Below, one piece after another: positions 37,510-49,155 of a stretch of DNA of 64,000 nucleotides. Made by a program: the position numbers and the translations under genes. The notes under the pieces are model-generated. The model worked only from the letters and a program-made list of their open reading frames with translations. It did not search any database and was not told where the DNA came from. Numbering within the stretch: the stretch's first letter is position 1; each line of letters starts with the position of its first letter. Origin of the DNA: Dysgonomonas sp. 25 (GTDB lineage: Bacteria; Bacteroidota; Bacteroidia; Bacteroidales; Dysgonomonadaceae); NCBI RefSeq assembly GCF_010501075.1, contig NZ_QVMN01000003.1, positions 138,292-202,291 of the forward strand, given 5' to 3'.

Positions 37510-37588
37510 AAAAAGAAGAAGACGGAAATCGCTTTCCGCCGCCTTATTTGTTTTCACAACGGAATAATCCTTATTGTGATTAGCTTTC
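37510..37588 (-). ncRNA. tracrRNA of the type II-C system
   Basis: About 79 nt on the minus strand, divergent from cas9. The anti-repeat (37588-37573, GAAAGCTAATCACAAT) pairs with the first 16 nt of the crRNA repeat (GTTGTAATTAGCTTTC) except for one A-C mismatch and one G-U. It is followed by a small nexus hairpin GGATTATTCC (37570-37561), a GTTGTGAAAAC linker and a terminator hairpin (37540-37521) with arms GGCGGAAA/TTTCCGTC and a GCGA tetraloop, then a T-rich tail. The order anti-repeat, nexus, terminator is that of Bacteroidetes II-C tracrRNAs. A promoter lies at the right distance. Confidence 0.9.
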
Positions 37589-37666: not shown

Positions 37667-40600
37667 ATGAAAAAGAACGTATTGGGATTAGACCTGGGAC
37701 CAAACTCTATCGGATGGGCTTTAGTAGAATACATTAAAAATCTTGAAACAGAAGGGTTTTCTCCTTCCGGAATCGTAGGCTTAGGTAGCCGTATAATACC
37801 TATGGACGCTGCAATGTTGAGCGACTTCGACAATGGAAACCTGAAAACGCAAACAGCAGAACGAACAAGATATCGTGGTGTCCGCCGCCTTCACGAACGC
37901 TATTTATTGCGAAGAGAGCGCCTTCATAGGGTATTGAACATCATCGGTTTCTTGCCGGAGCATTATGCTAAGTATATTGATTTCGGGAAAAAGCCCGGGA
38001 AGTTCCTGCTTGATTCGGAGCCTAAAATGGCTTATTCGCTGAATGAAGAAACAGGCAAATATGACTTCTGTTTCAAGGAGTCGTTTGCCGAAATGATACA
38101 GGACTTTCTTGAAAAGCAGCCTGACCTTGTAAAGGACGGAAAGAAAGTGCCTTATGACTGGACTATCTATTATCTACGGAAGAAAGCATTGACGGAGAAA
38201 ATAGCAAAGGAAGAGCTGGCATGGCTGATTCTGCATTTTAATCAAAAGAGAGGCTACTATCAGCAACGAGGCGAAGAGGAAGATATAAACATAAATGAGA
38301 CGAAAGAGTATCAGAAATTGCAGGTTGTGAGTGTCGAGGATTCCGGCGATAGAAAAGGAGATGCTATATGGTATAACGTGCTGCTGGAGAATGGCGATGT
38401 TTATAAACGACAGAGCAAAATTCCGCTCGATTGGGTGGGTAAGACAAAAGAGTTTATCGTCACAACGAAGCTTGATAAAGACAACAACGAGAAGCGCTCG
38501 TACAGTATCCCTACTGCCGACGACTGGACGTTGGTAAAAAAACGTACCGAGAAAGAAATCGACGAATCGCATAAGTCGGTGGGTACTTTTATCTATGATA
38601 GGTTACTGTCTGATCCGAATCAGAAGATAAAAGGAAAACTCATCCAGACGATAGAGCGTAAGTTCTACCGTAAGGAGCTTAACCAGATATTGAAGAAACA
38701 GAGAGAATTTCATCCCGAACTGAATAATCCCGAGCTATACACGCTTTGCATCAAGGATTTGTACCGGAGCAACGAGGCATATCGCAACAGTATTCAGAAC
38801 AAGGATTTTGTATATCTCTTTATCGACGATATTATATTCTATCAACGTCCGTTGAAAAGTAAGAAGTCGCTGATAGAGGATTGCCAGTATGAATACAGAA
38901 CCTATAAACATCCTGCGACAGGGATAGTAGAAAAGGTATATCTGAAATGTATATCCCGGTCGCATCCGCTGTTCGAAGAGTTCAGGTTGTGGCAGTTCCT
39001 GAAGAATGTAAAGATTATTGCGAAGGGTGATACCTCGGATGTGACTGCTCTCTATCTTCCTGACGAAGAGGCCTATGTTGCTTTGTTTGACCGATTGAAA
39101 GAAAAGAAAGAGGTCACACGTAAGTCGTTCCTGTCATCCATCAAAGGTGCCAAGCTCAAAGAGGATGCTTACGAATGGAATTATGGCGACCGTTCGTTGC
39201 CTATGTGCCCAACACATGCCGAGTTTGTCAGCCGCCTGAAACAAGTGGGATTGGATGATAGCTTCCTTACGGCGGAGGTCGAAGAACACTTGTGGCATAT
39301 CCTGTACTCCGTAAGTGACAAGGGCGAATTGGTGCAGGCATTGAAGTCGTTTGCTGTCAGATATGAAATAGCTAACGTAGAAGACTTTGTTGCCGAGTTT
39401 AAGAAGGTTAAACCTTTCGATAAGGCATATGCTTCCTATTCGTCCAAAGCTATGAAGAAGCTCCTCCCGCTGATGCGGATGGGAAAATATTGGGATAAGA
39501 ATGCATTTGACGCAAAGACAAAAGAACGCATCGACAGGCTTATTGATGGCGAAGACTGCGAAGCGATAAGTGAAGGTGTCAGGGAAAAGGTGGCAAAGGA
39601 ATTAGGTCAGGATTTGAATATCTCCCTATTCAGCGGATTGCCGCTTTGGCTGGCCTGCTATGTGGTATATAACCGTCACTCCGAAGCCAGCGAAACTGCC
39701 CGGTGGCAGTCGCCGAAAGATATAGATGATTTCTTGAAAGACTTCAGGCAACATTCGCTTCGCAACCCGGTGGTAGAGCAAATTGTGACCGAAACATTGC
39801 GTGTCGTTCGTGATGTTTGGGAGAAATATGGCGATTTATCGGAAATCCATCTCGAATTAGCTCGGGAAATGAAAAGTCCCGCCAATAAACGGCAGGAGAT
39901 AACCCGCAAGAATCAGGAGAACGAAAATACGAACATGCGTATAAGGGCATTGTTGACAGAGATGAGGAATGAAGGAAAAGATGTCCGTCCCGATTCATTG
40001 TCGCAACAAGAACGGCTCAAAATCTATGAGGAAGGAGTTCTTGGCTCAGCTATCGAAATCCCGGAAGATATTATCAAGATTACGCGCCAGAAACAGCCTA
40101 CACAATCCGAAATCATCCGTTATAAATGCTGGCTGGAACAGGGATATTGTTCGCCTTACACCGGAAAGCCTATTCCGCTGGGACGGCTCTTTACAAGTGA
40201 ATATGATATAGAACATGTCATTCCGCAGGCTCGCTATTACGACGATTCGTTCACTAATAAAATAATTTGCGAAAGTGCTGTCAACCGGGATAAAGGTAAT
40301 CTGCTGGCATGTGAATATATCAGACAAAAAGGCGGTACATGGGTTGACTTGGGTAATGGAGATAAAAGGGAAGTCTTGCGATACGAAGCTTATGAGGACT
40401 TTGTTAAGCGCAATTTCAAGAACTCGCCATTGAAAAAGAAAAAGTTGCTGATGGACGAAATTCCTGATAGTTTCATTGATAGGCAGATGAACGACACCCG
40501 CTATATCAGCCGATATGTGAAAGGCTTATTGTCGAATATTGTAAGGGAAGAGAACGAACAGGAAGCAACATCGAAAAACCTAATTCCCGTTACAGGGGCA

Positions 40601-42103
40601 ATAACAGCCAAACTGAAAGAAGATTGGGGATTGAATGATGTTTGGAATAAAATAATAACCCCTCGTTTCGAGCGGCTTAATGAGCTGACAAAATCAAACA
40701 GTTATGGATATTGGGTAGATAGACAAACATTCAAAATACAGGTGCCGGAAGAAAATCAACGAGGATTCAGTAAGAAACGTATCGACCATCGACATCATGC
40801 GATGGATGCCCTTGTCATAGCTTGCACAACCCGTTCGCATGTCAATTATCTGAATAATCAGTCTGCAAAAGAGGGAGATTCCCAAAAGAGAGAAAGAGAG
40901 AAAAAAGAACTGTTTATTGAGAAAAATAGAGGGAAGAAACTGCTTCGCAAGCCATGGGATACCTTTACGGAGGACACACAGAAAGCTATGGGCGATATCA
41001 TTATCAGTTTCAAACAGAACTTGCGTGTGATTAATAAATCGACCAATAAGTATCAGAAATACGAAGGAGGTACGAAGAAATTGGTTCATCAGGTAGGCGG
41101 TGACAATTGGGCTATTCGCAAGCCTTTGCATAAAGAAACTGTCTATGGCCGGGTAAATCTGCAATTGAAAAGAACAGTAACTCTTTCTGTGGCATTGGAC
41201 AACTGGCAAATGATTGTCGATAGGGAAGTCCGTGATAAGATAAAGCAATTGGTTAGCGAAAAGTTTGATAAAAAGCAAATCTTAGCCTATTTCAAAAAAC
41301 TGGATAATCGTTATGCACGGAAGGATATATCCAAGCTCGAAGTGTATTATTATAGCGACGAGAAAGAACCGTTGGTCGCTACCCGCAAAGCTCTGGACAG
41401 CACCTTTACGCTTAAAAATATAAATTCGGTAACAGATACAGGCATCCGGCAGATATTGCTTCGCCATCTCGAAAAATACGGAGGTGATACCGAAAATGCT
41501 TTCTCTCCCGAAGGGCTTGAGGATATGAATAAACATATCCGGACGCTAAATAATGGGAAGTACCATAAGCCAATTTATAAGGTTCGGGTATCCGAAGCGC
41601 TTGGAAGCAAATTCAATGTCGGCGAACGGGGAAACAAAAAGGCGAAGTATGTCGTTGCAGCCAAAGGTACAAATCTCTTCTTTGCTATTTATCAATCAAA
41701 AGATAGTAGTAAGCGAAGTTTTGAAACGATTCCGTTAGAGATCGTTATAGATAATCTTAAACGAGGAGAGAGCGCTGTTCCTACTACAAATAATGATGGA
41801 GATAAATTGTTATTTACCCTTTCTCCTAATGATTTGGTATATGTGCCAACCGAGGATCAACTGGAGCGGGGAAATATAGATATAAAAGATGTAGCAGGGA
41901 ACAAGAGCAGGATATATAAAGTTGTGAGCTGTACAGGAAATGAAGTACATTTTATTCCTTATTCTATTGCATGGCCTATTATTCAAGTAACAGAGTTAGG
42001 GGCAAATAATAAGGCTCAACGAGCTTGGTCAGGCGAAATGATAAAGGAAACTTGTTTAAAAATAGAAATAGATAGATTAGGAGAAATAAAGCAAATCAAG
42101 TAG
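37667..42103 (+). CDS. cas9: Cas9, type II-C, RNA-guided DNA endonuclease
   Basis: A 1478-residue nuclease. RuvC-I Asp9 lies in VLGLDLGPNSIGWAL; an arginine-rich bridge helix (RTRYRGVRRLHERYLLRRER) follows near residue 66. RuvC-II Glu730 is in EIHLELAREM, HNH His850 in YDIEHVIPQ with Asn873 in NRDKGN, and RuvC-III His1044/Asp1047 in HHAMDA. Both nuclease sites are intact. The size is at the large end for II-C but usual for Bacteroidetes Cas9. The PAM-interacting C-terminus cannot be read for specificity. The operon is cas9-cas1-cas2 without csn2 or cas4, which is type II-C. A 338-bp structured gap separates it from cas1. Confidence 0.97.
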   Translation: MKKNVLGLDLGPNSIGWALVEYIKNLETEGFSPSGIVGLGSRIIPMDAAMLSDFDNGNLKTQTAERTRYRGVRRLHERYLLRRERLHRVLNIIGFLPEHYAKYIDFGKKPGKFLLDSEPKMAYSLNEETGKYDFCFKESFAEMIQDFLEKQPDLVKDGKKVPYDWTIYYLRKKALTEKIAKEELAWLILHFNQKRGYYQQRGEEEDININETKEYQKLQVVSVEDSGDRKGDAIWYNVLLENGDVYKRQSKIPLDWVGKTKEFIVTTKLDKDNNEKRSYSIPTADDWTLVKKRTEKEIDESHKSVGTFIYDRLLSDPNQKIKGKLIQTIERKFYRKELNQILKKQREFHPELNNPELYTLCIKDLYRSNEAYRNSIQNKDFVYLFIDDIIFYQRPLKSKKSLIEDCQYEYRTYKHPATGIVEKVYLKCISRSHPLFEEFRLWQFLKNVKIIAKGDTSDVTALYLPDEEAYVALFDRLKEKKEVTRKSFLSSIKGAKLKEDAYEWNYGDRSLPMCPTHAEFVSRLKQVGLDDSFLTAEVEEHLWHILYSVSDKGELVQALKSFAVRYEIANVEDFVAEFKKVKPFDKAYASYSSKAMKKLLPLMRMGKYWDKNAFDAKTKERIDRLIDGEDCEAISEGVREKVAKELGQDLNISLFSGLPLWLACYVVYNRHSEASETARWQSPKDIDDFLKDFRQHSLRNPVVEQIVTETLRVVRDVWEKYGDLSEIHLELAREMKSPANKRQEITRKNQENENTNMRIRALLTEMRNEGKDVRPDSLSQQERLKIYEEGVLGSAIEIPEDIIKITRQKQPTQSEIIRYKCWLEQGYCSPYTGKPIPLGRLFTSEYDIEHVIPQARYYDDSFTNKIICESAVNRDKGNLLACEYIRQKGGTWVDLGNGDKREVLRYEAYEDFVKRNFKNSPLKKKKLLMDEIPDSFIDRQMNDTRYISRYVKGLLSNIVREENEQEATSKNLIPVTGAITAKLKEDWGLNDVWNKIITPRFERLNELTKSNSYGYWVDRQTFKIQVPEENQRGFSKKRIDHRHHAMDALVIACTTRSHVNYLNNQSAKEGDSQKREREKKELFIEKNRGKKLLRKPWDTFTEDTQKAMGDIIISFKQNLRVINKSTNKYQKYEGGTKKLVHQVGGDNWAIRKPLHKETVYGRVNLQLKRTVTLSVALDNWQMIVDREVRDKIKQLVSEKFDKKQILAYFKKLDNRYARKDISKLEVYYYSDEKEPLVATRKALDSTFTLKNINSVTDTGIRQILLRHLEKYGGDTENAFSPEGLEDMNKHIRTLNNGKYHKPIYKVRVSEALGSKFNVGERGNKKAKYVVAAKGTNLFFAIYQSKDSSKRSFETIPLEIVIDNLKRGESAVPTTNNDGDKLLFTLSPNDLVYVPTEDQLERGNIDIKDVAGNKSRIYKVVSCTGNEVHFIPYSIAWPIIQVTELGANNKAQRAWSGEMIKETCLKIEIDRLGEIKQIK

Positions 42104-42110
42104 AGCACAT

Positions 42111-42124
42111 AAGCTAATCACAAC
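42111..42124 (+). other. second anti-repeat-like sequence
   Basis: AAGCTAATCACAAC, 7 bp after the cas9 stop codon, equals the tracrRNA anti-repeat core (AAGCTAATCACAAT) at 13 of 14 bases and the array repeat end at 13 of 14. Here it reads on the plus strand. No nexus or terminator hairpin follows, so it is not a complete second tracrRNA. Confidence 0.6.
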
Positions 42125-42441: not shown

Positions 42442-43377
42442 ATGATCAAAAAGACCCTATATTTCGGAAACCCGGCCTACCTTAGCATGGCAAATAAGCA
42501 GATGATAGTGAAATTGCCGGAAGTAGAAAATGCAGATGTTCCGGAGTCATTTAAAGAACGCTCTAAAGCGAGTATTCCGATAGAAGATATCGGGGTCGTT
42601 ATTTTGGACAATAAACGGATAACGATTACACACGGACTGATAGAAGAATTATTGGATAATAATGTAGCCCTTGTAACTTGCGATTCCTCGCGAATGCCTG
42701 TCGGGTTAATGCTCCCTCTTTGCGGACATTCAACGCAAACAGAGCATTTTCGTGAGCAAATCGAGGCTACCCAGCCACTCAAGAAGCAGCTTTGGCAACA
42801 AACAGTCAAAGCGAAGATAAAAAATCAGGCAACCCTTCTCGAATCTACGCGAAATGTAGATGCTACGCCGATGTTTAAATGGGTTGATGATGTAAAGAGC
42901 GGAGATCCTGATAATTACGAGGCACAGGCTGCCGCCTATTTCTGGATGAATATCTTTCCTGATATTCCGGACTTCCGTCGTCACAGGGAAGGAGTTCCTC
43001 CCAATAATTTGTTGAATTATGGTTATGCTATTTTGCGTGCAGTTATAGCCCGTGCTATTGTTTCGGCTGGCATGTTGCCGTCTTTGGGTATTTTTCATCG
43101 GAATAAATACAATGCCTATTGTTTGGCCGATGACATTATGGAACCTTATCGTCCGGTGGTAGATAAGGTTGTAATTGATATTGTTGCTTCTGGGGTTGAT
43201 ATCTCCGACTTGGATATTGAACTAAAGCAAACACTTTTATCTATCCCGGGACATGATGTGGTGATGAATGGCAAACGCCGTCCTTTACTGGTCGCAGCCT
43301 CTCAAACAGCAGCAAGTTTATATAAATGTTTTTCGGGGGAAGTTCGGAAGATTGTATATCCTGATATAATTGTCTGA
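42442..43377 (+). CDS. cas1: Cas1 spacer-integration nuclease
   Basis: A 311-residue type II Cas1. The metal-binding residues are Glu160 in NYEAQAAAYFW, His219 in GIFHRNKYNAYCLADD and Glu234 in IMEPYRP. It forms the Cas1-Cas2 integrase that inserts new spacers at the leader end of the array. The N-terminal beta domain starts LYFGNPAYLSMANKQM as usual. It follows the structured gap after cas9 and is 5 bp from cas2. Confidence 0.96.
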   Translation: MIKKTLYFGNPAYLSMANKQMIVKLPEVENADVPESFKERSKASIPIEDIGVVILDNKRITITHGLIEELLDNNVALVTCDSSRMPVGLMLPLCGHSTQTEHFREQIEATQPLKKQLWQQTVKAKIKNQATLLESTRNVDATPMFKWVDDVKSGDPDNYEAQAAAYFWMNIFPDIPDFRRHREGVPPNNLLNYGYAILRAVIARAIVSAGMLPSLGIFHRNKYNAYCLADDIMEPYRPVVDKVVIDIVASGVDISDLDIELKQTLLSIPGHDVVMNGKRRPLLVAASQTAASLYKCFSGEVRKIVYPDIIV

Positions 43378-43382
43378 TCGAA

Positions 43383-43721
43383 ATGGGCTTGTCCAGATTA
43401 AATGAATATAGAATTATGTGGGTAATGGTATTTTTTGATTTGCCGACCGAGACAAAGAAAGAACGAAAAATGTATTCGGACTTTCGGAAGAAGCTTATAC
43501 AAGATGGTTTTACGATGTTTCAGTTTTCGATCTACTTACGTCATTGCGTTAGCCGAGAAAATGCCGCTGTACATATTGCACGGGTTAAAAAGAGTTTACC
43601 TCCTAAAGGTTATATTGGAATTTTATGTGTTACGGATAAACAATTTGAAGCGATGGAACTTTTCTATGAGAAAGAAGAAAAGAATATTTCTACCCCATAC
43701 CAACAGTTAGAGTTATTTTAG
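43383..43721 (+). CDS. cas2: Cas2 spacer-integration subunit
   Basis: A 112-residue ferredoxin-like protein. The conserved Asp19 lies at the end of the first strand in MWVMVFFDLPTETKKERK, and FRKKLIQDGFTMFQFSIYLR is the family helix-strand. It bridges Cas1 dimers. The full N-terminus (MGLSRLNEYRIMW) is kept because other II-C Cas2 proteins start similarly. It is the last gene of the cas set and is closed by an intrinsic terminator. Confidence 0.95.
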   Translation: MGLSRLNEYRIMWVMVFFDLPTETKKERKMYSDFRKKLIQDGFTMFQFSIYLRHCVSRENAAVHIARVKKSLPPKGYIGILCVTDKQFEAMELFYEKEEKNISTPYQQLELF

Positions 43722-43727
43722 AAAGCA

Positions 43728-43753
43728 AAAAATCGGGAGTATTCCCGATTTTT
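43728..43753. terminator. bidirectional terminator between cas2 and the array
   Basis: AAAAATCGGGA, a GTAT loop and TCCCGATTTTT. The A and T flanks make it work in both directions: for cas1-cas2 on the plus strand and for the pre-crRNA coming from the array on the minus strand. Confidence 0.85.
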
Positions 43754-43830
43754 CTGTTTGGATATACACTTTTTTCTGATCCTAAATTTTATTGTAATTG
43801 TTTGATATATAGCCTTAATAATGAGGGTAT
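43754..43830. promoter_or_regulatory. leader-like AT-rich stretch beside the first intact repeat
   Basis: 77 bp of AT-rich unique sequence between the terminator and the first full repeat. The array end beside it is intact, whereas the far end is truncated, so new spacers are probably added here. No promoter match is seen. Confidence 0.45.
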
Positions 43831-44783
43831 GTTGTATATCCTCTGCTAAGTTACAAATTTTGAAAGCTAATTACAACCGCCAAACGTGCTTTCGTTTTCA
43901 AATCATAGTTGTATATCCTCTGCTAAGTTACAAATTTTGAAAGCTAATTACAACAGGATCTTGCGCCGGTATACGTATGTCATAGTTGTATATCCTCTGC
44001 TAAGTTACAAATTTTGAAAGCTAATTACAACAAACGGATAGGTACGCTTAAAGACGGATTTGTTGTATATCCTCTGCTAAGTTACAAATTTTGAAAGCTA
44101 ATTACAACTTACAGAACGAAATAAACCCATTTTATTAGTTGTATATCCTCTGCTAAGTTACAAATTTTGAAAGCTAATTACAACAACACAATTTAATTAT
44201 GGCAGAAGAAACGAGTTGTATATCCTCTGCTAAGTTACAAATTTTGAAAGCTAATTACAACGGCTGTCAATAAATCACGAACTTTCTTTTTGTTGTATAT
44301 CCTCTGCTAAGTTACAAATTTTGAAAGCTAATTACAACATATGGAAATAAATGGAAATAATCTTGCTTGTTGTATATCCTCTGCTAAGTTACAAATTTTG
44401 AAAGCTAATTACAACAGAAAATCATTAGATTTTTTTCAAGTTCTTGTTGTATATCCTCTGCTAAGTTACAAATTTTGAAAGCTAATTACAACATAGTCCC
44501 GAGTTTTCAGAAGCATGGATATGTTGTATATCCTCTGCTAAGTTACAAATTTTGAAAGCTAATTACAACCGAAAAAAACAGAATCTCATAAGCCTCTATG
44601 TTGTATATCCTCTGCTAAGTTACAAATTTTGAAAGCTAATTACAACTTGATGGAGCGAAATATATCGGAGTTGCAAGTTGTATATCCTCTGCTAAGTTAC
44701 AAATTTTGAAAGCTAATTACAACTTTAACTCTTCACTGTTCATTCGTTCTAATGTTGTATATCCTCTGCTAAGTTACAAATTT
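43831..44783 (-). CRISPR. type II-C CRISPR array, 13 repeats and 12 spacers
   Basis: Twelve identical 47-nt repeats (plus strand begins GTTGTATATCC and ends GCTAATTACAAC) start at 43831, 43908, 43985, 44062, 44138, 44215, 44292, 44369, 44446, 44523, 44600 and 44677. A thirteenth at 44754 stops after 30 nt. Spacers are 30 nt except one of 29 nt (44109-44137). Read on the minus strand, the repeat begins GTTGTAATTAGCTTTC and pairs with the tracrRNA, so crRNAs are made on the minus strand. The truncated repeat is then at the 5' end, as described for II-C arrays. Repeat identity across all full copies points to an active or recent array. Confidence 0.97.
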
Positions 44784-44808
44784 AGTAAACAAAATATTCT
44801 GCTCCAAT
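44777..44808 (-). promoter_or_regulatory. candidate array promoter built on the truncated repeat
   Basis: On the minus strand ATTG (44808-44805), 20 bp and TAAATTTG (44784-44777). The TTTG comes from the truncated repeat and the TA from the flank; intact repeats have AAAATTTG at this place and lack the box. Transcription would start near 44770 and cover all twelve spacers. Confidence 0.62.
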
Positions 44809-44810
44809 GA

Positions 44811-47800
44811 TTATTCCTTTCTATTTATCTCACTTGGGGCTGTACCAAAATGTTTCGTGAAACAACGGGTAAAGTACTTCGGGTCGTTAAATCCTACCTC
44901 ATACGCTATTTCAGATATGCTCATATTACCCTTGCTGTTTTGCAATAATTCATATGCAACAGATAATCGATAATTACGAATAAAGTTGCCTGGAGACTGC
45001 CCTGCCAAGGTATGCATTTTTCGATTCGTAACACTCTTACTCATGCCTATTGCGTCTATGAAATCACTAACTTCATATTCTGGATTCCTATAATTCTCTT
45101 TTACAATTTCTATAGCTTTCCGTAAAAATCTATCATCAATGGATTCTTCTGCAATATTCAGTTCGTTAACGTCCATTTTTAAACTGAATCTGCGCTGATA
45201 TGCCCGCCTGCTCTCTAATATATTATTAATCCGCGTCAATAGCAATTCCTCATCAAAAGGTTTGGAGATAAATTCATCTACTCCTGTTTTAAAGCTACAG
45301 ATGCGCGTTTCAACATTTGTTTTTGCCGTAAGCATCAAAAACGGTATGTGTGATATCGTATAATCCGATTTCACCTTTTTCGATAATTCGAGTCCGTCCA
45401 TTACAGGCATCATCAGATCGCTTATAATAAAATCGATATTTTTGGACTTGATAATATCCAACGCTTCCTCTCCATTACTGGCTTCTAATACTTTATAATA
45501 ATCGGATAAGATGGATCGGATATATTTTCGCATATCGTGATTATCCTCGACGACAAGAATATGTAGTTTTTGCTCACCTAATATATTTTTCAGAGGATCA
45601 TTTTCCATGTCAATCGCTTTATCATCCATCGTTGCATCTATTTCTGTTGATGTGACAGATTTTTCTCTGAAAAGAGGTAGTAAAACCCTGATCGAAGCTC
45701 CCTTTACATGATTGTTTTTTGCTTCAATACTACCACCCTGAATAGTTATAATTTTCTTAGACAAGTATAAGCCTATACCTGTTCCACTTTGTCCCGATAT
45801 AGGATATTGCTCATTATCTTTTGATTGATAAAAGCGGTTGAATATTCTGCTTCTGTCCTCTTCGCGTATACCTATGCCTGTGTCTTGTATGCAGAGATAT
45901 AATGTCTCTGTATTGTTATTTTTATCCGCTAATGACGTCAGATATATTGAGACGACACCATTGTCAGGTGTGAATTTTATCGCATTCGACATCAGATTTG
46001 TTACAACCTTTCGGATAGCTTCTTCGTCGTACAATACATAAGGATGTATGAGCCTGTAGAACTTCCTGATAACTATATTGCGTTCGTTAGCATAAGATTC
46101 GAAAGGATATAAGATTTCGTTCAGAAAATTAATCAAGTTTCCTGTAACAGGATTAAAAGGCATATTACCCGATTCCACCTTTCGGAAGTCCATCAACTGA
46201 TTCACCAAAGATAAAAGATGCTTTGAATTACGGGCTACATATTGAAGTTGCTCAATAACCTTTTGATTTGTACTCAATTTCAAGGCTCTCTCGATTGGCC
46301 CGATGATCAAGGTGATAGGCGTTCGGAATTCGTGAGTTATATTGGTGAAAAATGATATTTTGTCTGATGTTGCTTCTTGTACCTTTTTAGACATGTCAAT
46401 CAGCTGCTTCTGCTGCGAAAGAATCTTCTCATTCTGAGAGACTAACATTTCGTTCTGAAACTTCAATTCCATCGCCTGATCCTCTAATAATGCTTTTTGC
46501 TCTTTCAGCACCTGAGTCCGTTCTTCTACTTTTTTGTGTAAAATCTCTCTTTGCTTTTTGAAACTTTGTACTCGCCAGCGATAAAATGATACAATCCCAA
46601 TAAAGATAAATAACACGCAAAGTGCTATAAACCAGCCTGTCTTATAGAAAAATGGATGGACGGTAATATCGATTTCGCTTATATTATCTGTCCAATCATG
46701 ATTCCCCGACATACTTCTCACCTGCAAGGTATAAGCTCCCGGTTTCAGATTGGTATAGCTGACGAAACGACGGTCTGCCTGCACGTCAACCCAATCATCT
46801 TCGAATCCGAGCAACCGGTACGAATAGACCACTGTCGATGGATTATCATAATCCATTGCCGAAAATTCAATTGAAAAGGACTTATCTCTTTCGTGCAAAT
46901 CAATATGGTCTGCATATACAATATCCGTTTCAAGGTATTTTTCGTTGCTCCACACCGTTTTGTTCAATACTTGCAACTTAGTGAATGTCACTTTCTCCCT
47001 TTTGGGGAAAAGGTATTGATTGTTACCTTTCAACTCGCTAAGTCCCCCCATATTACCTAAGTAAAGATTCTTATTGGTGGGCGATTTATATCCCGCATTC
47101 CAGTAAAACTGCTCATTGACCAACCCGTCATATTTCGTATAGTTTACAAAATGAGACGTCTCGGGGTCGAAACAAGACAATCCATAACCTGTGCCTATCC
47201 ACAACAATCCTTGCTCGTCTTCCAAAATCCCAAATGCAGCATTGTTTACCAATCCCTGATTTTGGGTATATGCCTTAAAAATATACTCTCCGTTTTCTTT
47301 TGTCAGCCTGCATATACCATATCCATTGCTCCCCAGCCAAATATCCTTTTTGGAAGTTTGATATATGGATGTGATGGTTTTGAAGAACAATTCACTGATT
47401 TTGTCTTCTATGGTGAGATAGCGGGCTGGACATGTAAATGTATCACGATCGAATTGGTGCAGGTCGATCTGGAGCAAACCTTTAGATGTACCCAGCCACA
47501 TACAATCGTCTTCATCTATCAGGCAGCCCAATACCCCCATAATGTTTTTAGTAATGGATTCGGGTAAAGGTTGTCTCATTGTATGGGTTTCATCATCAAA
47601 GAAGAATATATTTCTGTTCGTACCTACCCACATACCTCTATTTATAGAATCGTACTTGAGCACAGCTATATAATCCAGTCCCACATCATTATGTATTTCA
47701 AATGCTTTTTGTTGGATTTTATTCAGAGGCAGTATATTAATGCCTTTACCCCATGTCCCTATCCAAAGATTTCCCGAAGCGTCCTCCTCCAGGGTACTTA

Positions 47801-49049
47801 CCGAATTGTGGCTAATGCTGCTCGTTGCTGTCGTGAAATGTAAAAATCCATCTTTACCTTTCAGTTTTAAGTTTAAACCTCCTTCTACAGTCCCTACCCA
47901 TAAATTACCTTTGCTATCTTCCAGAATAGCATTTACTGGATTGGGAGAAATACTCTTAGGATTGTTCTTATCATGAATATAGTTACGAATAGCCAATCTC
48001 CGGAGAGACATTTTATTCACACCACCGGCTTCGGTACCTATCCACAGGGTATTATCATCGGCCAATAAGCAATTGACAAAGTCACTGTTGAGTGATGACT
48101 CATCTTTTCCGTGACAGACATGCTCAAATGTATTTGAAGCGGGATCATAAAAGTTCAACCCTCTGAGAGTACCCACAACCAATGTCCCATCTCCGGTGAG
48201 AGCAAGATCTGTTATCATATTCTGCGACAAGGATGCCGGATCGTTCGCATCATGGAGAAATACCTGGAAGCTTTTATCTGTCAGATTATATCTGTACAAA
48301 GCTCCTTCGGTACCTATCCAGATATGGTTCTCTTTTTTTAGTATACTCGAAATAAAAACACTTGGGTTTCTTAATGGTATATCATTAACCAAGACGGGGA
48401 CTAAGATACCCGATTTGCCGGGCAGAATGTGATAGATGGCACCTGCGCTCCCAACCCACATTTCACCATCTATCTCACTGATTGTAGTGAACGAAAAAGA
48501 AGATTTCGAATCTGCTTCATTCGTCGAAGAAATATTCTCTATCGAGCCTTTTTCGTCAAAATCAATTTTGAGTAGTTCCGTCGTTGACAAAATCCAGATA
48601 CTACCTTTTGTATCTTTCAGTATAAAAGAGGCTGAAACATCCGCTATGCGGGCAAGGAACTCTTTCCCGCTTGCAATATCGGACTGAGTCATCATTTTCA
48701 GGTCTATAACATCGATGCCCGAAGTCGAAGCCACCCACAATCGGTTGTAATCGTCCTCACAAGTCTTTTTTATGAAATTACTCTTGAGAGCTATGGGGCT
48801 ACTATTGACATCGAACTGGAGGCACTCGTAACCATCGAAACGGCACAATCCTCCACCTTGAGTAGATATCCAGATAAAGCCATGTGTATCCTTGAATATA
48901 TCATCTATGAAATTGCCGGAAAGGCCATTTTCGACTGTTATCGAACTGAAGATACATTCAGACGAAACTGAATTCTGGCTACTGGCTGAATGAGTAGACA
49001 GAATATGTATGAGCATGATTATCAATAGCCAATTATATGTGTTTCTCAT
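44811..49049 (-). CDS. hybrid two-component system regulator of the arabinan locus
   Basis: A 1412-residue inner-membrane HTCS. Order: signal peptide; two beta-propellers of Reg_prop repeats (WISTQGGGLCRFDG, WIGTEAGGVNKM, WVGTVEGGLN, WIGTGYGLSCF); Y_Y_Y domain (near 740-800); one helix (WFIALCVLFIFIGIVSFY); kinase with His906 in NITHEFRTPITL; ATPase region with GTGIGLYLSKKI; receiver with Asp1211 in IISDLMMPVMDG; C-terminal AraC-type HTH (ISEIAYEVGFNDPKYFTRCF). All phospho-relay residues are intact. It should sense arabino-oligosaccharide in the periplasm and activate the divergent operon. The ATG at 49049 is chosen because the upstream extension would cover the operator. Its stop codon is 27 bp from the CRISPR array. 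Confidence 0.95.
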   Translation of the reverse strand: MRNTYNWLLIIMLIHILSTHSASSQNSVSSECIFSSITVENGLSGNFIDDIFKDTHGFIWISTQGGGLCRFDGYECLQFDVNSSPIALKSNFIKKTCEDDYNRLWVASTSGIDVIDLKMMTQSDIASGKEFLARIADVSASFILKDTKGSIWILSTTELLKIDFDEKGSIENISSTNEADSKSSFSFTTISEIDGEMWVGSAGAIYHILPGKSGILVPVLVNDIPLRNPSVFISSILKKENHIWIGTEGALYRYNLTDKSFQVFLHDANDPASLSQNMITDLALTGDGTLVVGTLRGLNFYDPASNTFEHVCHGKDESSLNSDFVNCLLADDNTLWIGTEAGGVNKMSLRRLAIRNYIHDKNNPKSISPNPVNAILEDSKGNLWVGTVEGGLNLKLKGKDGFLHFTTATSSISHNSVSTLEEDASGNLWIGTWGKGINILPLNKIQQKAFEIHNDVGLDYIAVLKYDSINRGMWVGTNRNIFFFDDETHTMRQPLPESITKNIMGVLGCLIDEDDCMWLGTSKGLLQIDLHQFDRDTFTCPARYLTIEDKISELFFKTITSIYQTSKKDIWLGSNGYGICRLTKENGEYIFKAYTQNQGLVNNAAFGILEDEQGLLWIGTGYGLSCFDPETSHFVNYTKYDGLVNEQFYWNAGYKSPTNKNLYLGNMGGLSELKGNNQYLFPKREKVTFTKLQVLNKTVWSNEKYLETDIVYADHIDLHERDKSFSIEFSAMDYDNPSTVVYSYRLLGFEDDWVDVQADRRFVSYTNLKPGAYTLQVRSMSGNHDWTDNISEIDITVHPFFYKTGWFIALCVLFIFIGIVSFYRWRVQSFKKQREILHKKVEERTQVLKEQKALLEDQAMELKFQNEMLVSQNEKILSQQKQLIDMSKKVQEATSDKISFFTNITHEFRTPITLIIGPIERALKLSTNQKVIEQLQYVARNSKHLLSLVNQLMDFRKVESGNMPFNPVTGNLINFLNEILYPFESYANERNIVIRKFYRLIHPYVLYDEEAIRKVVTNLMSNAIKFTPDNGVVSIYLTSLADKNNNTETLYLCIQDTGIGIREEDRSRIFNRFYQSKDNEQYPISGQSGTGIGLYLSKKIITIQGGSIEAKNNHVKGASIRVLLPLFREKSVTSTEIDATMDDKAIDMENDPLKNILGEQKLHILVVEDNHDMRKYIRSILSDYYKVLEASNGEEALDIIKSKNIDFIISDLMMPVMDGLELSKKVKSDYTISHIPFLMLTAKTNVETRICSFKTGVDEFISKPFDEELLLTRINNILESRRAYQRRFSLKMDVNELNIAEESIDDRFLRKAIEIVKENYRNPEYEVSDFIDAIGMSKSVTNRKMHTLAGQSPGNFIRNYRLSVAYELLQNSKGNMSISEIAYEVGFNDPKYFTRCFTKHFGTAPSEINRKE

Positions 49050-49121
49050 AGTACAGGTCGTTTGTTTTTTTAAAATTAATGATAATATTTTGAAAAAGCA
49101 CCCGGTTAAGTGTAAAAAATA

Positions 49122-49155
49122 CAATTGTCCACCTGAAAGGGCCAATTGTCCACCT
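49122..49155. promoter_or_regulatory. tandem direct repeat, candidate HTCS operator
   Basis: CAATTGTCCACCT occurs at 49122-49134 and again, identical, at 49143-49155, a 21-bp period (two helix turns). The second copy ends 19 bp before the -7 box TATATTTG, where the missing -33 element would lie. This is the expected position for an AraC-type activator dimer. Confidence 0.72.

Follow-up and report, generated by a model that had tools for sequence, protein, structure and literature searches.

The CRISPR array of Dysgonomonas sp. 25, on the minus strand of the window (the whole 64-kb stretch of DNA analysed here), probably begins with an ordinary extra repeat of the Bacteroidota type II-C kind, which would have lost its tracr-pairing part, kept its promoter part and acquired a second box by accident. 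More useful than the box created at the break is the one that lies inside related repeats, in what is called here the family register. A perfect TAnnTTTG is located 18 to 22 nt behind the 5' GTTG in 96 of 125 distinct related repeats (44 to 49 nt), and in 79 of these 96 it reads TATCTTTG.

Layout of the CRISPR-Cas9 locus

The genes for Cas9 (type II; 37667-42103; TIGR01865, 433 bits), Cas1 (NMENI family; 42442-43377; TIGR03639, 303 bits) and Cas2 (43383-43721; TIGR01573, 68.7 bits) are consecutive on the plus strand and followed by the array, which is the gene content of a type II-C locus. No fourth cas gene was found: cas1, cas2 and overlapping frames account for every ORF of 90 aa or more that lies between cas9 and the array. 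The array has 12 identical 47-nt repeats and 11 spacers (43831-44723, minus strand). Each repeat is laid out as GTTG-N20-TAACTTAG and on the minus strand reads AAAATTTG directly followed by TAACTTAG. The first-transcribed and oldest spacer (44724-44753) is flanked by the first full repeat and by a thirteenth, truncated copy (44754-44783), of which the last 30 of 47 nt are present and the 16 nt of the 5' tracr-pairing part are gone. In keeping with the II-C orientation, this 5'-most, extra repeat is the copy farthest from cas2, at the leader-distal end.

A predicted tracrRNA (37521-37588, minus strand) comprises an anti-repeat (37588-37573) and a terminator-like hairpin (37540-37521), and the sequence ahead of it matches a promoter (TTTG-N20-TATATTTG, 37625-37594). 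Because the beginning of the minus-strand repeat pairs with the anti-repeat, the crRNAs are assigned to the minus strand and, judged by this pairing, the array is read from the truncated end towards cas2. The preliminary description had the truncation remove a part of no use at a transcript start, and the portion lost is indeed the tracr-pairing one. The predicted duplex with the anti-repeat has an energy of -17.4 kcal/mol for a full repeat and -3.8 kcal/mol for the truncated repeat, a weakening of the kind expected of an extra repeat disarmed against ecrRNAs.

Upstream of the array is a co-directional gene (44811-49145, minus strand), which we take from the appearance of its sequence to encode a hybrid two-component system protein. 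As its stop codon is only 27 nt ahead of the retained repeat and no terminator-like site was found between gene and array in 44600-45000, the array may plausibly be reached by read-through, and an empty guide could then come from a full first repeat. No array-free empty site was recognised when the relatives of this gene in the genus were compared; 11 of 25 genomes matched, its own included, and the sequence behind the estimated gene end looked unrelated by eye in the seven relatives inspected.

At the other end, an Rfam search gave just a sub-threshold STnc50 match (43685-43761). Inside this region, between cas2 and the array, is an inverted repeat (AAAAAATCGGGA/TCCCGATTTTT, 43727-43754) that might end both convergent transcripts; a simple scan called no array terminator at the cas2 end, this inverted repeat included. 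A second anti-repeat-like stretch, AAGCTAATCACAAC (42108-42124, plus strand), lies directly behind cas9 and is flanked by inverted GTAGAGCA/TGCTCTAC arms.

A box inside related repeats

Related loci were collected by Cas1 searches in genomes. The best 80 of 580 were used from the first search; further searches gave 27, 144 and 89 genomes above the cut-off (partly overlapping), from which 120 regions were taken by E-value order and contig room. In all, 162 arrays were oriented, and three repeat clusters for which orientation was impossible were dropped. The count of 125 repeats excludes 15 arrays with 36-nt repeats and one with a repeat of 51 nt. The counts cover Bacteroidota loci, and the repeats are related by descent and so do not represent independent events. 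Two loci from records titled Hungatella and Eubacteriales (L031 and L033) have Bacteroidetes-type II-C repeats, reflecting either mis-binned contigs or transfer.

When the repeats were shuffled behind position 16, a mean of 0.43 and a maximum of two in 300 trials had the box, compared with the 96 observed. In 118 repeats aligned on the box (at least five of six fixed bases), the six fixed columns hold 1.88, 2.00, 1.93, 2.00, 1.48 and 1.62 bits, the seven columns after the box 0.03 to 0.43 and the adjacent column before it 0.97, with up to 1.38 three bases ahead. Among the 36-nt repeats, 12 of 14 score two or three of the six box bases. TAnnTTTG was also present near an anti-repeat candidate, ending at most 25 nt before it or overlapping it by at most 4 nt, in 102 of 130 loci, a figure biased upward since it takes the best of up to four candidates per locus. 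L009, the nearest relative by Cas1 among the best 80 of 580 (90% identity), carries TATATTTG in the family register and TTG 19 nt ahead of it, and lacks a box in the register of the window's junction. The window array itself has TAACTTAG in this register, with five of the six fixed bases and hence not a perfect box.

Promoters for sigma-ABfr of Bacteroides have a -7 element TAnnTTTG and a -33 element TTTG at variable spacing (PMC7366714); their starts were mapped, whereas the sites described here are sequence matches alone. Repeat-internal promoters were shown in Campylobacter jejuni by mapping of transcription start sites (PMC3656092). As in the II-C systems of C. jejuni and Neisseria meningitidis, where a promoter lies in the 3' part of the repeat and a separate start is possible for each spacer (PMC3656092), the Bacteroidota repeats, as far as their sequence goes, may each carry one. 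In C. jejuni an extended -10 box is at the repeat end and the start is within the spacer (PMC3656092); in contrast, the TAnnTTTG-like box is in the middle of repeats of 46 to 48 nt and would start transcription about 11 nt ahead of the spacer.

Published statements on transcription of Bacteroidota Cas9 arrays disagree. No promoter was found in the repeats of Riemerella (PMC5006608), and for the II-C repeats of Flavobacterium columnare and F. psychrophilum TTG alone is named, TAnnTTTG being named for cas9 only (PMC8092290, PMC10309648, in their accessible parts). No description of TAnnTTTG in Bacteroidota II-C repeats was found among the literature matches listed, which mostly leave subscription papers uncovered. 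The presence of TAnnTTTG in most sampled repeats would be a simple, testable answer, an aid to orienting arrays from sequence and a means of predicting start sites within a few bases.

First repeats of related arrays

Of 138 distinct arrays with repeats of 44 to 49 nt, 99 have at least 100 nt past the first repeat and 93 of those a box score of 5 or 6. The first repeat deviates from the consensus in 56 of the 93 and is truncated in 41, of which 39 are shortened from the 5' side alone (L121 and L184, which are not plain 5' truncations, are excluded from the 39). The place of the family box is retained in 29 of these 41 truncated repeats, window included (28 of the 40 others); among the 29, 27 have its fixed bases either intact or improved, the exceptions being L138 and L169. 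However, breakpoints are spread about evenly, 29 of 41 falling before the box compared with an expected share of approximately 0.72 for detectable uniform breaks (a rough hand estimate), so box retention is by itself no proof of selection. Mismatches counted by column, in a search for selection on the truncated repeat, number 3/486 in fixed box columns, 3/162 in unspecified box columns, 6/569 in the linker, 19/940 in the 5' part and 33/1251 in the 3' part, the last figure being inflated by shifted rows from L068 and L085. TTG upstream of the box was not above chance in first repeats that had lost their 5' part (4 of 29, 2.68 expected, P = 0.27). At L028, which has only 87 nt upstream and is excluded from the 93, the junction restores TA ahead of TTTG in the family register.

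The extra repeat of II-C arrays has been reported to carry mutations in its first 15 nt, its promoter part perhaps being kept for the first spacer (PMC12080349). Such mutations are one of three ways around ecrRNAs in II-C, although selection was not shown there (PMC12080349). The window array resembles this suppression of ecrRNAs in that its oldest, first-transcribed repeat is changed in the tracr-pairing 5' part and predicted pairing is weakened, while the promoter part is thought necessary (PMC12080349). It differs in that unique DNA has taken the place of its 5' part and a second box arises at the junction. The accessible parts of PMC12080349 make no mention of junction-made promoters, and the term 'Bacteroid' was not found in its text so far as accessible.

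The box at the junction

As the preliminary description stated, the 12 full repeats have AAAATTTG where the thirteenth reads TAAATTTG (44784-44777), its T being unique DNA and its AAATTTG repeat, and ATTG is found 20 nt upstream (44808-44805), right behind the stop codon of the upstream gene. That account was correct on TAAATTTG but missed the adjacent TAACTTAG (44776-44769), which occupies the box place of related repeats. The truncated copy therefore reads TAAATTTG-TAACTTAG, with T as the base at the break, and the TAACTTAG place, 8 nt downstream of the junction register, is kept in all 13 copies. The layout said to be shared with the tracrRNA promoter is present there in full, but at the junction the upstream element is ATTG and not TTTG.

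The junction box fits the sigma-ABfr -7 consensus; its candidate -33 element matches three of four bases at a gap of 20 nt, and TTG is at chance level in the other first repeats with a lost 5' part. TTG-N18-22-TAnnTTTG occurs nine times in the window (five plus, four minus strand) and between 37 and 46 kb at two sites only, the junction and the tracrRNA promoter. A scan of the whole window bore out that the junction is the array's only full-consensus promoter match. Shuffling of the flanks of the window array produces a junction box with a probability of 0.289, and a box with TTG with a probability of 0.022. Among the 39 truncated first repeats, a box across the junction in the new register is found in one, the window (0.93 expected from shuffled flanks), and the same one alone has TTG at 18 to 22 nt (0.06 expected, P = 0.062). 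By these shuffles the junction box alone is explained by chance, and the box with TTG only narrowly so.

The preliminary interpretation is supported in part, but its proposal that truncation is what makes the promoter is not supported. In relatives a consensus box is inside the repeat and in another register (96 of the 125), most of the other truncated first repeats retain that place, and none of the 38 others examined has a junction-made box in the new register. Related arrays whose degenerate repeat lacks the box had been named beforehand as evidence against the proposal, and the related degenerate repeats are indeed without it in this register. As a recurrent device, a junction-made promoter had no second instance among the 39. 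The junction box is real, matches a promoter better than any other site of the array and may be in use; most simply, it would be a by-product of local origin rather than a conserved device.

The TTAG variant

In the own genome, TAnnTTTG was found 79 times before genes compared with 22.6 in dinucleotide shuffles, a 3.5-fold enrichment (163 upstream regions from 461.7 kb, with genes crudely predicted as ORFs that start with ATG and span 90 aa or more), and TTG-N18-22-TAnnTTTG 14 times compared with 2.1. On the opposite strand of these regions TAnnTTTG was likewise common (53). Neither TAnnTTAG (14, 17.3 in shuffles) nor AAnnTTTG (20, 31.5 in shuffles) was enriched in them. It is because TAnnTTTG is enriched before genes and TAnnTTAG is not that the junction site is taken as the array's only full-consensus promoter; for the same reason the internal boxes of the window may be weak, which leaves room for a single promoter.

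TAnnTTAG, with T7 changed to A and the G retained, is the commonest single departure from the box (11 of 125 distinct repeats: L027, L035, L062, L085, L091, L104, L105, L106, L199, L207 and the window). The change apparently arose in several lineages, and it may be a tuning of internal promoters. Of 14 TTAG loci, window included, 10 had TAnnTTTG ahead of an anti-repeat candidate (best of up to six candidates, hence biased upward), which suggests that the sigma factor is unchanged in these loci. L085 has TTAG ahead of its anti-repeat candidate as well, so the variant may be functional there.

For eleven TTAG arrays 100 nt or more of sequence is available past the first repeat, and in two of them, the window and L085, the first repeat has a perfect box; the other nine, which range from 5 to 111 repeats in size, lack one both there and in the preceding 60 nt. 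At the 5' end of the L085 array the full repeats have TAATTTAG and the first repeat TACTTTTG, with a second TACTTTTG 32 nt upstream. This looks like a short tandem duplication yielding two consensus boxes.

Origin and role of the truncated repeat

According to the reading that we prefer, most related repeats would open with a 5' tracr-pairing block starting with GTTG and have, 18 to 22 nt on, the -7 box TAnnTTTG of the primary Bacteroidetes sigma factor, making each repeat a possible transcription start for the spacer that follows. In the window array the internal box would have drifted to TAACTTAG. Its extra repeat, lacking the tracr-pairing block, should give no empty guide RNA upon read-through from the upstream gene, and would retain the -7 box and all sequence behind it. 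The break would by chance have placed a T before AAATTTG, thereby adding a further box, 8 nt upstream, that matches the consensus in full. We infer both transcription from any of the boxes and selection against empty guides. The junction site may well be the array's strongest start, and with sub-consensus internal boxes and one consensus end site the array offers a natural comparison between many promoters and a single one.

It is possible but unlikely that TAAATTTG and ATTG are the promoter of the entire array, giving one transcript from approximately 44772 with all 12 spacers while the internal boxes are too weak. This would fit the uniqueness of the junction site in the array (one of nine in 64 kb), the low probability of box plus TTG in shuffled flanks, the absence of enrichment of both TAnnTTAG and AAnnTTTG in the own genome, the consensus box at the anti-repeat candidates of most TTAG loci, window included, and the perfect TACTTTTG in the first repeat of L085. 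Against it, the junction box is absent from all 38 other truncated first repeats, 9 of 11 TTAG arrays have no perfect box at or ahead of the first repeat, L009 (nearest among the best 80 of 580) has TATATTTG in the family register and not that of the junction, and TTAG may function at L085, where it also precedes the anti-repeat candidate. A broader form seems improbable: Bacteroidota II-C repeats would be complete sigma-ABfr promoters, GTTG serving both as tracr-pairing start and as -33 element, T-to-A at the seventh base of the box would lower internal promoters in several lineages, and the truncation in the window would have made one consensus promoter for the whole array. If true, the window array would represent a switch from many promoters to one.

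Transcription mainly from the upstream gene, with the boxes of the truncated repeat irrelevant, is in our judgement quite improbable. The close stop codon, the lack of a terminator-like site in 44600-45000 and the poor tracrRNA pairing of the truncated repeat would agree with it; however, regulatory genes of the hybrid two-component kind are usually weakly transcribed, and most related repeats have a promoter-like box. Just as doubtful is conservation of TAnnTTTG in II-C repeats for recognition by Cas1-Cas2 or Cas9. The box is within the integration substrate too, and TTG upstream of it is at chance level in truncated first repeats, but conservation is strongest at the six positions that the published sigma-ABfr -7 consensus specifies (PMC7366714). 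Furthermore, the two unspecified positions are more variable, the gap to GTTG ranges from 18 to 22 nt, and most anti-repeat candidates are preceded by this box too.

Other crRNA-like units

A solo crRNA-like unit is present on the minus strand of the own genome, approximately 11 kb past the window end (L216:10895-10970; G000 contig 32, near 213.2 kb). It consists of a 23-nt half repeat beginning exactly at TAACTTAG, a 29-nt spacer and a tracr-pairing half repeat, whose predicted duplex with the anti-repeat has an energy of -19.7 kcal/mol. Immediately upstream, on the same strand, is a terminator-like hairpin, and a downstream hairpin was called as a terminator on the opposite strand. With up to three mismatches allowed, the spacer matched nowhere else in the genome. 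In addition, a degenerate repeat (L226:13746-13802, minus strand; G000 contig 21, near 193.75 kb) is followed about 5 nt away by a second half repeat and then by an inverted repeat, and the pair could be an orphan relic or a small RNA. Elsewhere, three crRNA-like units at 126-nt spacing, separated by a different linker, are next to a normal array (L198:7981-8260), and single or split crRNA units with an altered 5' repeat half are found upstream of the main array at L015 (near 4857) and L156 (near 5953).
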